Shown one piece after another: positions 4,763-41,217 of a stretch of DNA of 64,000 nucleotides. The DNA comes from Leptospiraceae bacterium (GTDB lineage: Bacteria > Spirochaetota > Leptospiria > Leptospirales > Leptospiraceae), in NCBI GenBank assembly GCA_015075105.1, contig JABTUZ010000001.1:186001-250000 (forward strand). The letters are read 5' to 3'. The translations under genes were made by a program, and so were the position numbers. Numbering within the stretch: position 1 is the first letter of the stretch; every line of letters begins with the position of its first letter. The notes beneath the pieces were generated by a model. The model was not told the DNA's origin, made no database searches, and saw nothing but the letters and a program-made list of their open reading frames with translations.

Positions 4763-4872
4763 AGAATCCCTCTTAATAAGAAAGATTCTATTTTAGAAAT
4801 TGTGTCAAATCAATCTTTGTAAAATAGAAAAAAATTTCAGAGTTCCGGAGATGAATTTTTTAAAAAATGAAT

Positions 4873-5673
4873 TCATGCTACTTTTCTTTCACAGAACTTT
4901 CTTTGAATTCTTTTTATAGTTTCATTGTAGATCATCACTACTCTGTGGGTTGGTATTTTAAATAATTCACCTAATTCTTTAAATGTGATATAGCAGGCAG
5001 GCTTTTCTAAAAAATTAATGATCTGTTTTTTTCTGAGTTTTAATTCTTCTATATCGGTATAACTTTTATCAAATATTCTTCGGTTGATAGAATTCAATTT
5101 TCTTAACATTGTATCTACTTGGTGATTGTATTTTTGAATACTTTGAAAATAATCGTTATAGAAAGAATTTATTTTGATTCCATTTTTTCTTAGAGTGTTT
5201 TCTAAAAAAATTTTACTTTCTAAGTCTAACTCTATATTGAATCTTAAACAAATTACAACTTTAGAAAATTGAGAGCAATTTTCTAAAGTACTATGCACTT
5301 TAAACTTAGATTTATATTTTTTAGTTTTAGAATTCATGTAAATTGTTTCGTTCCATAGTGCTAAATAATCTTGGTTTTTTTGTTTTCTGTGAATCCGAAG
5401 CATGTTTAGTGTCAGGTGCTTGCAGTATATATTAAAAAAGCTCGGAAATTGTGTGAGTGGATTGTCCCTGAATAATCGAATACACTCGTCTTTTTTCTTT
5501 TGAATTAAAAAATACATTTCTGACTCTAACCCATCTCTGATATGGAATATATCTCTTGCGTAAGTTACTATCCATATCCCAGCAATTTTCAAAAATGGTT
5601 CCAATTTTCCGGTGGCTTTAAAATACTGCACAGATTGAATTAGCTCAATATTACTCGGTTTTTTCATTTCCAT
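4873..5673 (-). CDS. Unknown helical protein, possibly sigma-factor-like
   Basis: 266 residues, basic and almost entirely helical. The C-terminal ~35 residues (FKELGELFKIPTHRVVMIYN, then ETIKRIQRKF) look like a sigma region 4-type helix-turn-helix, and the stretch around residues 30-95 has the size and helical character of sigma region 2, but I see no clear signature. It is not clearly co-transcribed with its neighbours (about 110-base gaps on both sides). It could equally be an unrelated DNA-binding protein. No function is assigned beyond likely DNA or RNA polymerase binding, which is inference. Confidence 0.5.
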   Translation of the reverse strand: MEMKKPSNIELIQSVQYFKATGKLEPFLKIAGIWIVTYARDIFHIRDGLESEMYFLIQKKKDECIRLFRDNPLTQFPSFFNIYCKHLTLNMLRIHRKQKNQDYLALWNETIYMNSKTKKYKSKFKVHSTLENCSQFSKVVICLRFNIELDLESKIFLENTLRKNGIKINSFYNDYFQSIQKYNHQVDTMLRKLNSINRRIFDKSYTDIEELKLRKKQIINFLEKPACYITFKELGELFKIPTHRVVMIYNETIKRIQRKFCERKVA

Positions 5674-5777: not shown

Positions 5778-7082
5778 TTAAGGGCAGGTTAAATTGACTC
5801 GAATAGTATCTCTAAAAGAATTCGGGCTTACAGAAAAATTTGTCTCTCGAACAATGGTATCCGGGTAGCCATCGATTCTTGAAATATCTCCGACACATTG
5901 CAGTTTATAATTTCCCTCGTGGATGTATTTTATCTTAGTAGTTCCTTGTTTGACGGGAGAGGCTGCCAAAGGCAATTGTGTGCGAAAATCGATTTCGTCG
6001 CTTCTAAAAACTGCATAATAGTGATTTAGAGATTTTGTCCCACCTGAAATTTCTAAGCTTGATGCTTTTTCAGGATAGATCACTCTCGCTCTGGAAAGTA
6101 AATTCCCGCCCATATCTGCTTCACTTGCGTGATTATTATTCCAATCGCTAAAAGAGATTAGTGTTCGTACATTCCCTGTAGTATTAACGTAAGAGTGAAC
6201 CATTAAGTTTTCCTTAATATTGGCTCGGATCTCAAGTATGTAAGGATCCGCCCCGGGTCTTATAGACATATCGTTTTGTCCCGGTTGAACAGAGTATAGC
6301 AAGGGAAACATTGCAGGGATAGTAGCATCCTTGATTGCAGCTTCAGTCCCGGGTTTGTAATTATTTCTAGGGACTATATTGGCACCTCCCGTAAGTATTG
6401 TATGGTTATCGAACACTGTGTCTATAACAAGACCACCGGCTTCTCTTGCCCAACCTGTAACAAGAGATCGAAAATAAACTCCGGTGTAGTAGTACTGTGT
6501 TGCATCCATGATCCCGCTTTGAGAGGATAAAACTTGCTGGTCGTAACTTCCATAATTGGTTTCTGCAGTAGGATCATTGGACGGAAATTGTGCTCCTCTT
6601 CCACTAAAGAAATCATTGATTTTAGAGAGACCGGTCTTATGGCAGGTAGATTCTGTTGCCGAGTAAAATATCGTGCAATACACTTGCCTTTCGGGAGCTA
6701 TAAAATCCCAGAATTTTTTTGAATCCCTTGCGTCTTTGATGGCTGCGAGATTTCCTATTCCTTTTTGGTACTTGGAGGAAATCCTGATTTCTCCAATGTC
6801 TAAAAAAATAGCTAAGTCTTTGGCTTGTGGTAAGTCTGCAAGGTCATAAGGCGGGTCGGTTCCATTTCCGGAATCTATTTGATCGTCCATATATAGTTTT
6901 CCCGTACCGTTTGAATATTCTTCAAAACTCAAAGGATCGTCTGTGGCATAAGTTCCTTTGAGTAGAAGCAACATTCTGTTATTGAATAAGGTAGATATAA
7001 GTGGCTGGTTTCCGATTTTCCCACTCTTCGTATTGCATTGAAGTAGGAATAAAAAACATAGAAATGTAAAAAAAATTTTCAT
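5778..7082 (-). CDS. Putative lipoprotein of unknown function
   Basis: 434 residues. The signal peptide MKIFFTFLCFLFLLQC ends in a lipobox-like Cys16. The body is rich in Gly, Asn, Thr and aromatic residues with several Cys (for example VYCTIFYS and STCHKTG), suggesting a secreted beta-rich fold. No known domain was recognised. Its start overlaps the stop of the upstream outer-membrane protein gene by four bases, so the lipoprotein is coupled to it; the pair probably works at the cell surface. Last gene of the DUF2225-truA-OMP-lipoprotein run. Confidence 0.7.
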   Translation of the reverse strand: MKIFFTFLCFLFLLQCNTKSGKIGNQPLISTLFNNRMLLLLKGTYATDDPLSFEEYSNGTGKLYMDDQIDSGNGTDPPYDLADLPQAKDLAIFLDIGEIRISSKYQKGIGNLAAIKDARDSKKFWDFIAPERQVYCTIFYSATESTCHKTGLSKINDFFSGRGAQFPSNDPTAETNYGSYDQQVLSSQSGIMDATQYYYTGVYFRSLVTGWAREAGGLVIDTVFDNHTILTGGANIVPRNNYKPGTEAAIKDATIPAMFPLLYSVQPGQNDMSIRPGADPYILEIRANIKENLMVHSYVNTTGNVRTLISFSDWNNNHASEADMGGNLLSRARVIYPEKASSLEISGGTKSLNHYYAVFRSDEIDFRTQLPLAASPVKQGTTKIKYIHEGNYKLQCVGDISRIDGYPDTIVRETNFSVSPNSFRDTIRVNLTCP

Positions 7083-37555: not shown

Positions 37556-37639
37556 TTTATATTATTTTTCAAATAAGTCAAATAGAATTATACAAATAGA
37601 TTTGACAATTTTTTGATGAGGAAAAGTTTGGAATTGTCC

Positions 37640-37760
37640 GAATGGAGGAAGTTGGGTGAGCCGTTAGGCAACTCCCTCGCTGTCCCGCAACTGTAATCTA
37701 TGCAATAATTTTCCTTTATTGAAAATTTTATGCATAGTAAGCCAGATACTCCTCTTTACA
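37640..37760 (+). promoter_or_regulatory. Cobalamin (B12) riboswitch
   Basis: The core reads GTCCCGCAACTGTAA at 37682-37696 and, after a variable A/T-rich arm, AGTAAGCCAGATAC at 37736-37749, which match the conserved B12-box elements; an upstream GTTGGGTGAGCCGTTAGGCAACTCC in pieces supplies the preceding stem. It lies in the 357-base space before the lipoprotein gene at 37913, on the same strand. It should repress the two downstream genes when adenosylcobalamin is plentiful. The exact 5' boundary and expression platform were not resolved. Confidence 0.88.
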
Positions 37761-37912
37761 GGAATATTTCTCGTGGAATGGGGATATTTCAGTATTGATT
37801 TCTTTTTAAGATATTTAGGTCTGTGAATTATTAATATCAGATTATAAATGTAAAAAGAAATTTTTGTAAAGTTGATCCTTTCTCCTCGGATACAAATTAT
37901 TTGGAGAAAAAA

Positions 37913-38518
37913 ATGAAAAACCTTTTTAAGAGCTTCACACTCTTACTGTTTATTTTGATTTCACTGATTTTTTCAGGATGCCAAAACAGTAATGAAAATT
38001 ATAAAAATCAAGCTGATACAAATGCGTTAGCCGGAATCCTTGGAGTTATTGCCGAGAAATCTAAGCTATTAGAATTGAACGGAAAATGGCAAGCAAATAC
38101 TGGTAGTGGAACATCGACTGCAAGTCTTACAACCATTTCTGCTGTGAAAGGAAGCACAGGTGCTTGGATTGATGATTCATCTTCTTTCGGTGGATATAAC
38201 ATGTGTGTGATTATTGTAGATTTTGATAACACTACAAAAACTATGATTACCCAAAACCCTGAAAAGCAGGGAAATTGTCCGAATGGATTTTCAGATTCCA
38301 ATAAAGGGAAATTCAATAAAATTGTTTGGACAACAGGTTCAAATCCGAATCAATTTTATTTTTGTTCGGTTACTTACGGGCAGGCTACCAGAGCATTGGC
38401 AGAGGCTGTCACAGACAATTCTGTGAAAACAAATCCTTCTGTAACCGGTTGTTGTTCAGGACAAACTTGTGCAACTGCAACCAACTCTTGGTCTAAACTG
38501 GACAGAGTGGCTCCGTAA
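37913..38518 (+). CDS. B12-riboswitch-controlled lipoprotein, unknown family
   Basis: 201 residues from the ATG at 37913 (GGAG seven bases upstream). The signal ends IFSGCQNS, a clear lipobox. The mature part is Thr/Ser/Asn-rich, beta-like, with Cys pairs at the C-terminus (VTGCCSGQTCATA). I do not recognise a family. It is the first gene behind the cobalamin riboswitch and ends one base before the next lipoprotein gene, which also contains a GCCSG motif. A role in binding B12 or a corrinoid at the outer surface is a reasonable inference, not a finding. Confidence 0.7.
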   Translation: MKNLFKSFTLLLFILISLIFSGCQNSNENYKNQADTNALAGILGVIAEKSKLLELNGKWQANTGSGTSTASLTTISAVKGSTGAWIDDSSSFGGYNMCVIIVDFDNTTKTMITQNPEKQGNCPNGFSDSNKGKFNKIVWTTGSNPNQFYFCSVTYGQATRALAEAVTDNSVKTNPSVTGCCSGQTCATATNSWSKLDRVAP

Positions 38519-38519
38519 A

Positions 38520-39380
38520 ATGCAAACCATGCAATTGAATTTTAGAGTATTGCAATTATTTAAGAGAGTAATTATTTTAGCTATATTTCTATTATTCAAT
38601 TGCACTCCAGAAAAATCTTCTGCAAAAACTAACTCGGCTATTTTGTTGTTGGCAATACTTGGTGGGTCGATGAATTCGGTTGCACTTCCACCGGAGGATG
38701 CCGCAGACAACGTAGTATCTGCACCCAACCACACAGGTGACGGATTTTACGATAAAAATAAAGCAATAAATGGTGTACGCGGCAGTGGGTGTTGTTCTGG
38801 CTCTACAGATGTATATTCTTTAAGTGCAACCGGAATTGGAGCAAGTATTGTTTTAGAATGGAAAAACAAAAAAATAGTGAATGGTGCTGGAATTGATTTA
38901 ATTGTATTTGAAAATCCTTTTAATATCAATGGAAACTCCAGTGCAAGGTTTATGGAGCCTCTGATTGTAGAAGTTTCAAGGGATAATATAAAGTATTGCG
39001 GTTTTTTTCCAAACTACACTCATACCAATGAAACAGTATATTCCAATGATCCGTCTAAATGGTTAAACTTTGCAGGAAAAACTCCAGTGTTGTACAACGA
39101 GGATACAAATAAAATTGCTGGAAATGATATTTACGATCTCTCAAAATCAGGTGGAGACGGATTTGATTTAGATAATTTAAGCTCCGATAATTCTTTTTCA
39201 ATAGGATGCAGCACAACTGTTGTAAATGATATTTTACAAAATGGATTTTACTATATTAGGCTTACAAGTGCTACAGACAGAGTCAACCCTGATTCTGGTG
39301 TAAAATTTCCAAAAGACTCCGGCGCATTCGATGGATCGGATATCGACGGAGTTTTTGCGAGATATAGGTCTTTGAGATAA
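38520..39380 (+). CDS. B12-riboswitch-controlled surface lipoprotein, second gene
   Basis: 286 residues from the ATG at 38520, one base after the previous stop; the signal IILAIFLLFNC gives a lipobox. The mature part has an N-terminal block NHTGDGFYDKNKAINGVRGS followed by GCCSGSTDV, then IVLEWKNKKIVNGAGIDLIV, FENPF and FMEPLIVEVSRDN, a pattern I associate with 'cell surface protein' families of beta-sandwich type found near B12 uptake genes in other phyla. No TonB-dependent receptor is present here. Likely exposed on the outer membrane. Confidence 0.72.
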   Translation: MQTMQLNFRVLQLFKRVIILAIFLLFNCTPEKSSAKTNSAILLLAILGGSMNSVALPPEDAADNVVSAPNHTGDGFYDKNKAINGVRGSGCCSGSTDVYSLSATGIGASIVLEWKNKKIVNGAGIDLIVFENPFNINGNSSARFMEPLIVEVSRDNIKYCGFFPNYTHTNETVYSNDPSKWLNFAGKTPVLYNEDTNKIAGNDIYDLSKSGGDGFDLDNLSSDNSFSIGCSTTVVNDILQNGFYYIRLTSATDRVNPDSGVKFPKDSGAFDGSDIDGVFARYRSLR

Positions 39381-40046: not shown

Positions 40047-40293
40047 TTCATTCTCCTCTTTATTGTGCGTTGCACTATAAATTCAATACCATTTTTTTGT
40101 GCATTGCACTAATGTAAACTAAAAATTTTCTTTTTTTCTTTGTTTGCGAAAAATATTCGCTAAATTTAACGTTAATTGAAGCATCACACTAGACTTTTTG
40201 GTTGAAAAAAATGATATGGTAGATAAAACAATTTCTTAATCCCGCCCCCAAGACACCCGACATCCATGCCAGACAAAGAGAAGGAAAGAAAAA

Positions 40294-41028
40294 ATGAAAG
40301 AGGAAATAAATGTTTGAACAGACTTTAAGAATATAGACGAAATTTTGTACAAAGACGCAGACTACTCCAGTGAACTAGATTATGTAGAACAAACTTCATG
40401 GATATTGTTTTTGAAATATTTGGACGACTTGGAGAAAGACCGAACAACAGCACCGAACAAACAGGCAAGAGTCTTGCCCTGAGCGGTGCCAAAGGGACAC
40501 GCCCATTATTGACAAAGATTACCGACAGTTTAGGCAACGCCCCTTCGACAGGCTCAGGAGCTGAGTGCCAAATCGAAAATGGTGAATAGTGAGCTTGTCG
40601 AACCAGACCATCACAACGCCCTGACAGGCGACGGACCTCACCGACTTTGTTAACAACAAGCTCTTTCCATATTTTAAAAAGTTTAAACAAAGTGCAGAAA
40701 GCCCAGAAACAATAGAATACAAAATAGATGAAATATTTAACGAACTGAAAAACAAGATTCTAAGCGGTTACAACCTGCGGGAAGTATTAAACCTTGTGGA
40801 TGAACTTCGTTTTCAATCAAAGACAGACTAACATGAAATGAGCCACTTATATGAAGCCAAAATTCCGAACATGAGAAATGCTGGTCGTAATGGAGGCGAA
40901 TACTGCACGTCAAGGTCTCTTATCAAGACTATCGTAAAAGTTGTGGTACCGAGAATAGGGCTAAAAATCTATGATGGTGCTTGTGGCAGTGCAGGTTTCT
41001 TATGCGAAGCATTTAATTACTTAAAAAA
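40294..41028 (+). pseudogene. hsdM: hsdM remnant (type I restriction-modification methyltransferase)
   Basis: Three frame-shifted pieces of HsdM follow one another: an N-terminal piece (ELDYVEQTSWILFLKYLDDL, near 40320-40440), a middle piece (LTDFVNNKLFPYFKKFKQ, 40636-40830) and the start of the catalytic domain (MSHLYEAKIPNMRNAGRNGG, YDGACGSAGFLCEAFNY; 40838-41025) where the SAM-binding motif begins. About 190 bases of unrelated, palindrome-rich DNA interrupt the first two. The catalytic N-P-P-F motif and everything after are lost. The base composition is visibly less AT-rich than its surroundings, suggesting acquired DNA. Confidence 0.85.
40544..40602. repeat. REP-like inverted pair inside the hsdM remnant
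   Basis: TTCGACAGGCTCA at 40544-40556 and TGAGCTTGTCGAA at 40590-40602 are inverted copies of each other with one mismatch, separated by 33 bases. A related CCCTGAGC...AAAGGG palindrome lies just upstream near 40478-40498. This is the kind of short palindrome often scattered between or inside dying genes. Confidence 0.7.
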
Positions 41029-41035
41029 CAGTCCC

Positions 41036-41050
41036 CTGAGCTTGTCGAAG
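41036..41050 (+). repeat. Third copy of the TGAGCTTGTCGAA word
   Basis: CTGAGCTTGTCGAAG marks the exact point where the hsdM remnant stops and the GIY-YIG fragment begins, consistent with an insertion or deletion at the palindrome. Confidence 0.6.
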
Positions 41051-41052
41051 CA

Positions 41053-41217
41053 TACGGATATATGTATATTCTTCAATGTGCAGATGGAAGTTTTTATACT
41101 GGAAGCACGAAGGAATTAAATTTAAGAATTGAACGACATAAGAACGGAGAAGGTGCAAATTTTACAGCAGAGAATTCACCAGTCAAGTTAGTTTACTATG
41201 AAATATTACTTTGGTGA
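41053..41217 (+). pseudogene. GIY-YIG endonuclease-like fragment
   Basis: 54 codons reading YGYMYILQCADGSFYTGSTK, then LNLRIERHKNGEGANFTAEN and PVKLVYYEILLW before a TGA. It matches the N-terminal part of UPF0213-type GIY-YIG proteins (Y-x-Y-I-L...Y-T-G-x-T...R...H), but the conserved C-terminal portion that follows YYE is missing. It has no ribosome-binding site of its own and lies between the hsdM and hsdR remnants. Probably inactive. Confidence 0.7.

Follow-up and report, generated by a model that had tools for sequence, protein, structure and literature searches.

The 64,000-nucleotide stretch analysed here (the window; C1:186001-250000), from the genome of a Leptospiraceae bacterium, carries a cobalamin riboswitch followed by two lipoprotein genes, P1 and P2. 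We consider it likely that P1 and P2 form an operon which is repressed by vitamin B12 and encodes outer-membrane lipoproteins that would capture cobamides for a BtuB-type receptor encoded elsewhere in the genome. What is known of B12 capture with the help of lipoproteins comes mainly from gut Bacteroides. Our data indicate that spirochaetes, Myxococcota, Planctomycetota and others have a lipoprotein module under the same type of RNA switch, in which no sequence similarity to the lipoproteins of Bacteroides could be detected. Two protein families whose role was unknown gain a concrete function that can be put to the test, and a surface lipoprotein of Leptospira that has so far been studied as an adhesin may have to be seen in a different light. 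With some reserve, we lean towards the wider view that riboswitch-P1-P2 represents an unrecognised B12-capture module of several phyla, in which P2 would be a new corrinoid-binding family and P1 a lipocalin-like co-binder, and that the LIC13354-LIC13355 pair of pathogenic Leptospira would scavenge B12, adhesin activity being secondary.

Riboswitch, leader and gene pair

The cobalamin riboswitch claimed by a sequence-only reading of the window was borne out by covariance search, in which RF00174 matched over the full model length (model positions 1-189) with a score above the gathering score (Table 1). The conserved core includes the CCCGCAACTGT box, and its columns are invariant across 12 related leaders. 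The aptamer ends 141 nucleotides before the P1 start codon and thus lies in the 5' leader of the gene; the 3.42-Mb genome has just one other cobalamin riboswitch. It might be argued that this riboswitch is decayed or read through and that the lipoproteins are expressed independently of B12 in an unrelated role, given the modest aptamer score (37.6 bits), several non-standard pairs and a receptor that is not adjacent to the pair. However, relatives share the aptamer core, and the arrangement is kept across the class and recurs in other phyla with scores of up to 121 bits, so that we regard decay as extremely unlikely.

Since no intrinsic terminator was found on the plus strand of the leader, and since TTTCTCC (37879-37885) is able to pair with GGAGAAA (37903-37909) and would thereby cover the Shine-Dalgarno site (GGAG, 37903-37906), control at the level of translation appears plausible. 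RNA folding of the leader did not settle the switching mechanism. At low intracellular cobalamin the riboswitch would leave the mRNA on and both lipoproteins would be made, and at high concentrations the aptamer would bind cobalamin and expression would be shut off.

Both genes start with ATG, exactly 1 base separates them, and both products begin with lipobox-like signals (IFSG-C23 in P1, LLFN-C28 in P2). Coordinates and signals agree with the earlier description of two lipoprotein genes 1 base apart behind the riboswitch. As had also been stated, no receptor, transporter or synthesis gene adjoins the pair in the window, the neighbours being a divergent open reading frame (ORF) of 368 amino acids upstream and a convergent transglycosylase (SLT domain) downstream.

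Table 1. Features of the riboswitch-P1-P2 locus, in window coordinates (genes from the start codon to the end of the stop codon; aa, amino acids; pLDDT, predicted local distance difference test)
Feature	Position	Strand	Basis
Cobalamin riboswitch aptamer (RF00174)	37600..37771	+	cmscan 37.6 bits (gathering score 31.5); core kept in 12 related leaders
Leader, presumed expression platform	37772..37912	+	Sequence; no intrinsic terminator on the + strand
P1, predicted lipoprotein, 201 aa; predicted lipocalin-like barrel	37913..38518	+	ORF, family alignment A2, model pLDDT 80
P2, LIC_13355-family lipoprotein, 286 aa; presumed corrinoid-capturing domain	38520..39380	+	NF033170, alignments A1 and A3, model pLDDT 88

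Distribution of the arrangement and its B12 context

The search for the pair in 30 genomes of the order, in which P1 homologues were sought by iterated profile search, placed P2 in 26 genomes (27 loci), with P1 directly upstream at 23 of the 27. The exceptions are G020, where the contig ends within P2, G024, where the pair is split, G027, where P2 stands without P1 beside it, and G004, where P2 is part of a BtuB operon and P1 lies close by, together with DUF6580, on the opposite strand. An Rfam search of the order gave 27 cobalamin riboswitches at E <= 0.001, and 14 of them are immediately followed by a homologue of P1 or P2. In a more permissive search of 16 loci, cobalamin-class matches were found 5' of P1 and in the same orientation at L005, L006, L007, L012, L016, L017, L018, L022, L023, L024, L025 and L027; these matches, which cover most of the remaining loci, were mostly to the adenosylcobalamin (AdoCbl) model and below the gathering score. 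With E values between 4e-5 and 1.2 in 60 kb they are each weak alone, their position being always the same. A core-like match only was obtained in G006, and weak matches precede the BtuB-F5-P2 operon of G004 and a second P1-P2 copy in G011. In the sister family, a riboswitch of up to 85 bits was found upstream of P2 at 10/10 loci with readable upstream sequence, where it mostly leads straight into P2 (gap below 400 nucleotides in most, about 1.7 kb in L186). Across the class, a cobalamin-type riboswitch precedes P2 or its operon at nearly every readable P2 locus. Moreover, in G024 P1 and P2 lie on different contigs, each behind a separate riboswitch (L082, L055), and the lone P1 of G027 follows a riboswitch (L081), which argues that both proteins, and not one alone, belong to the B12 regulon.

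To look beyond the class, we scanned GTDB genomes with the help of profiles and obtained 297 P2 relatives, of which 80 loci were retained; the family was found in metagenome-assembled genomes (MAGs) of environmental spirochaetes, Myxococcota, Planctomycetota and archaea. Rfam was applied at the gathering score to 50 loci, all from outside the class except L112; a cobalamin riboswitch is present in 30 of them, with scores of 65-121 bits in most. Among the 42 loci with at least 1.7 kb of upstream sequence, a same-strand riboswitch lies no more than 1.7 kb upstream in 23, compared with 0.008 expected from the riboswitch density in the order; the enrichment is not circular, because the loci were picked by protein sequence alone. 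The order riboswitch-P1-P2 is also present in L115, L119, L135 and L144, and BtuB-type receptors are encoded near P2 in L112, L115, L116, L117, L150, L152, L155 and L160. In L120 and L122, two P1-like domains followed by P2 are fused in a single protein, the P1 repeats being recognised by eye and, in L120, also by a sub-cut-off match to NF047669 (LIC13354 family exoprotein). Five further loci (L110, L125, L131, L142, L143) encode propeller-P2 fusions, whose propeller part gave generic propeller matches, with BtuG1 at E 0.053 only.

According to Pfam and NCBIfam, recurrent neighbours of P1-P2 are DUF4430, DUF6580, a BtuB-like TonB receptor, CobT, CobS and a histidine phosphatase. Several genomes share the order P1-P2-DUF4430-DUF6580, after which come either CobT-CobS-phosphatase or BtuB with a lipoprotein. 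The best NCBIfam model of the neighbouring TonB receptor is the B12 receptor TIGR01779, with a score below the cut-off. A BtuB-type receptor in the same operon, absent from the window, is present in the relatives G024, G013, G014, G004 and L115. The homologues thus stand in a B12 context, with BtuB and CobT/CobS among their neighbours and riboswitches before them, and the earlier proposal of a hitherto unnoticed system that captures B12 at the cell surface is strongly supported by riboswitches, B12-gene neighbours and the P1-P2 and propeller-P2 fusions.

The other cobalamin riboswitch of the host genome precedes a TonB receptor of 691 amino acids, for which TIGR01779 comes second among the models, with a siderophore-receptor model slightly ahead. 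Because this genome encodes four proteins with a B12-binding domain and just two tetrapyrrole methylases, the bacterium probably needs B12 and does not make it, and would live as a scavenger. We propose that P1 and P2, exposed at the surface, bind cobamides and hand them over to a BtuB-type TonB-dependent receptor, which would be the product of the gene behind this other riboswitch. P2, the more widespread part that occurs with or without P1, would most likely be the corrinoid-binding domain, and P1, the predicted lipocalin-like barrel, a co-capturing or handing-over partner.

Protein families, predicted folds and alternative roles

The sequence-only reading took both lipoproteins to be of unknown family, which has to be corrected for P2: it matches NF033170 (LIC_13355 family lipoprotein, NCBIfam) over residues 19-281 with 260.4 bits (cut-off 120), and the member from L. 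interrogans has been published as an adhesin and plasminogen-binding protein (PMC11891782). No Pfam match was found for P2. For P1 of the window, no Pfam or NCBIfam model gave a significant match, NF047669 (cut-off 130 bits) included. That model matches 10 of 24 aligned P1 sequences (best E 7e-13, below cut-off), its genome searches fall on the P1 genes of G007, G011, G013, G014, G016 and G023, and it gave no match above cut-off in any of 48 genomes. By these profile matches P1 is homologous to relatives of the LIC13354 family, yet it is not filed as an NF047669 member. Since P2 belongs to the LIC_13355 family and P1 homologues match NF047669, LIC13354-LIC13355 of L. interrogans is probably the same gene pair as P1-P2. 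Adjacent numbering and co-induction of the two genes (3.8- and 3.7-fold, respectively, in host-implanted chambers) suit one gene pair (PMC3953431).

The two Leptospira families carry no B12 annotation. LIC_13355 was reported to be surface-exposed in L. interrogans, and the recombinant protein bound laminin, plasminogen and endothelial cells (PMC11891782). Together with the induction in host chambers, this binding would suit a P2 family of host adhesins for which the B12 riboswitch serves as a mere sensor of the host environment. However, the recombinant protein had been refolded from inclusion bodies, the family is widespread in MAGs of environmental spirochaetes, Myxococcota, Planctomycetota and even archaea, and its members stand beside B12 uptake and salvage genes and behind cobalamin riboswitches; we therefore regard a primary role in adhesion as very unlikely. 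B12 has been reported to be essential for the growth of Leptospira (PMC3493377).

The AlphaFold2 model of P2 has its best fold match among all PDB chains in BtuG1 of the BtuB1-BtuG1 complex (E 1.6e-3, probability 0.92), followed mainly by beta sandwiches of the discoidin/CBM32 type. The P1 model consists of an N-terminal helix and antiparallel strands forming a barrel; it resembles lipocalins and avidins, its best fold matches, none of which is significant (Foldseek E >= 0.14), and the P1 profile weakly matches the bacterial lipoprotein chain 5cyb (E 0.023). These predicted fold matches of P1 and P2 are leads only.

BtuH and BtuG of Bacteroides are likewise riboswitch-controlled lipoproteins encoded with BtuB (PMC8941943, PMC10404256), and BtuG1 combines a propeller and a BtuH domain in one protein (PMC10404256), an architecture which the propeller-P2 fusions mirror. 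They differ in that they come from another phylum and have no detectable sequence similarity to P2; moreover, the pair in the window has no receptor beside it, and a counterpart of P1 was not found in the Bacteroides systems. BtuG is a seven-bladed beta-propeller capping BtuB, whereas the best fold matches of P1 and P2 are not generally propellers, and no BtuG sequence match was obtained. As for BtuH, which is marked by a C-terminal B12-binding domain of the BtuH2 type, there was no sequence match at E <= 10, and the top fold match BtuG1 carries a BtuH domain, the matched part being unspecified. BtuJ/DUF4465 proteins are riboswitch-controlled cobamide-capturing lipoproteins as well, occurring in many phyla including Spirochaetota (PMC12751083, PMC13398666), but neither P1 and P2 nor 39 P2 relatives have a match to DUF4465 (Pfam).

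Several points weigh against the reading of P1-P2 as a cobamide-capturing operon. The BtuG1 match of P2 is weak (template modelling score 0.33, root-mean-square deviation 11.8). Homology of P2 to BtuH or BtuG was not found by sequence: the narrow and wide profiles reach no PDB chain at E <= 10, BtuG1 and BtuH2 included, bar one chance match. Some 40% of the distant loci, several being fragments, have no riboswitch detected by Rfam at the gathering score, and the P2 of G027, apart from P1, has none in the permissive search. The sole experimental paper found on a family member deals with laminin and plasminogen and mentions neither B12, cobalamin nor riboswitches (PMC11891782). Cobalamin riboswitches of Leptospira have been reported only before btuB and the cob operon (PMC3493377, PMC3953431), and the genomes searched here did not include Leptospira.

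P1 and P2 might also belong to the B12 regulon without binding corrinoids, as accessories of the BtuB machinery such as lids, receptor stabilisers or envelope partners of DUF4430/DUF6580. Indeed, the direct evidence is all regulatory and positional, no sequence link connects the two proteins to a known B12-binding protein, and they are often encoded beside other unexplained parts. An accessory role nevertheless appears improbable, as throughout the sister family the riboswitch is followed by P2 alone or by P2 as the first gene, P2 is fused to differing partners, which suits a ligand-binding module, and its best fold match is a B12-binding lipoprotein.

The FENPF/FMEP-type blocks noticed earlier in P2 are real and strongly conserved in the family alignments as E-N-x-F and F-M-E-P-x-I-V-E-V-S, and P2 also has a conserved GGDxFDL loop. 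Asn399 and Phe401 contact B12 in BtuH2 (PMC8941943), and the conserved Asn-x-Phe of P2 may recall these two residues. The GCCSG motif proposed to link the two proteins is indeed present in both and in no other of the 74 ORFs of at least 100 amino acids in the window, but it is not conserved: the additional Cys occurs in 1 of 25 P2 (A1) and 1 of 24 P1 sequences (A2), in each case the window's own. GCCSG was therefore rejected as a shared functional motif, and the idea that its Cys pair coordinates the corrinoid cobalt fails with it, a general role as cobalt ligand being unlikely since the motif is not conserved. Cys is conserved in the family alignments at other positions, namely C160 and C230 of P2 and C151 and C181 of P1. 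In the wide P2 alignment, Cys-Cys stands at the GCCSG place in 4 of 39 sequences, counting the window's own; distant Polyangia-type relatives (L149, L155, L171) have it, and nearly all other members do not.

Further observations in the window and related genomes

The lipoprotein adjoining BtuB, F5, was considered as a BtuG and left unnamed, since its profile gave non-significant propeller matches only. In the host genome, at L080:3424-6426 (C1:133.4-136.4 kb, minus strand), the other cobalamin riboswitch is followed by the TonB receptor and then by a 'plasminogen-binding lipoprotein' of the LIC10920 family (NF047807, 243 bits), a second family named for host binding in an apparently B12-controlled operon. 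A second B12 protein is not claimed here, as no receptor lies beside this lipoprotein in the same-family relatives that were read. The host genome also has a lone DUF6580 gene (C2, L190:5759-6340), possibly an inner-membrane partner; in the order's other family, its relatives are part of P1-P2 operons.

Two MAGs titled Klebsiella pneumoniae, the sources of L115 and L133, contain riboswitch-P2 loci of deltaproteobacterial type, L115 also with P1 and BtuB, and are probably mislabelled bins. The window region 40262-41119 looks degraded and holds an N6 DNA methylase fragment (93 amino acids, PF02384); this is probably what is left of a restriction-modification gene. At L083:6194-6825 and L084:6558-6773, strong cobalamin riboswitches (90.9 and 57.9 bits, respectively) lack a large gene close behind them on the same strand. 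In L083 the riboswitch is followed by a Cys-rich ORF of 78 amino acids (6589-6825), and L081 has a similar Cys-rich ORF (4804-5202, minus strand) behind riboswitch-P1.
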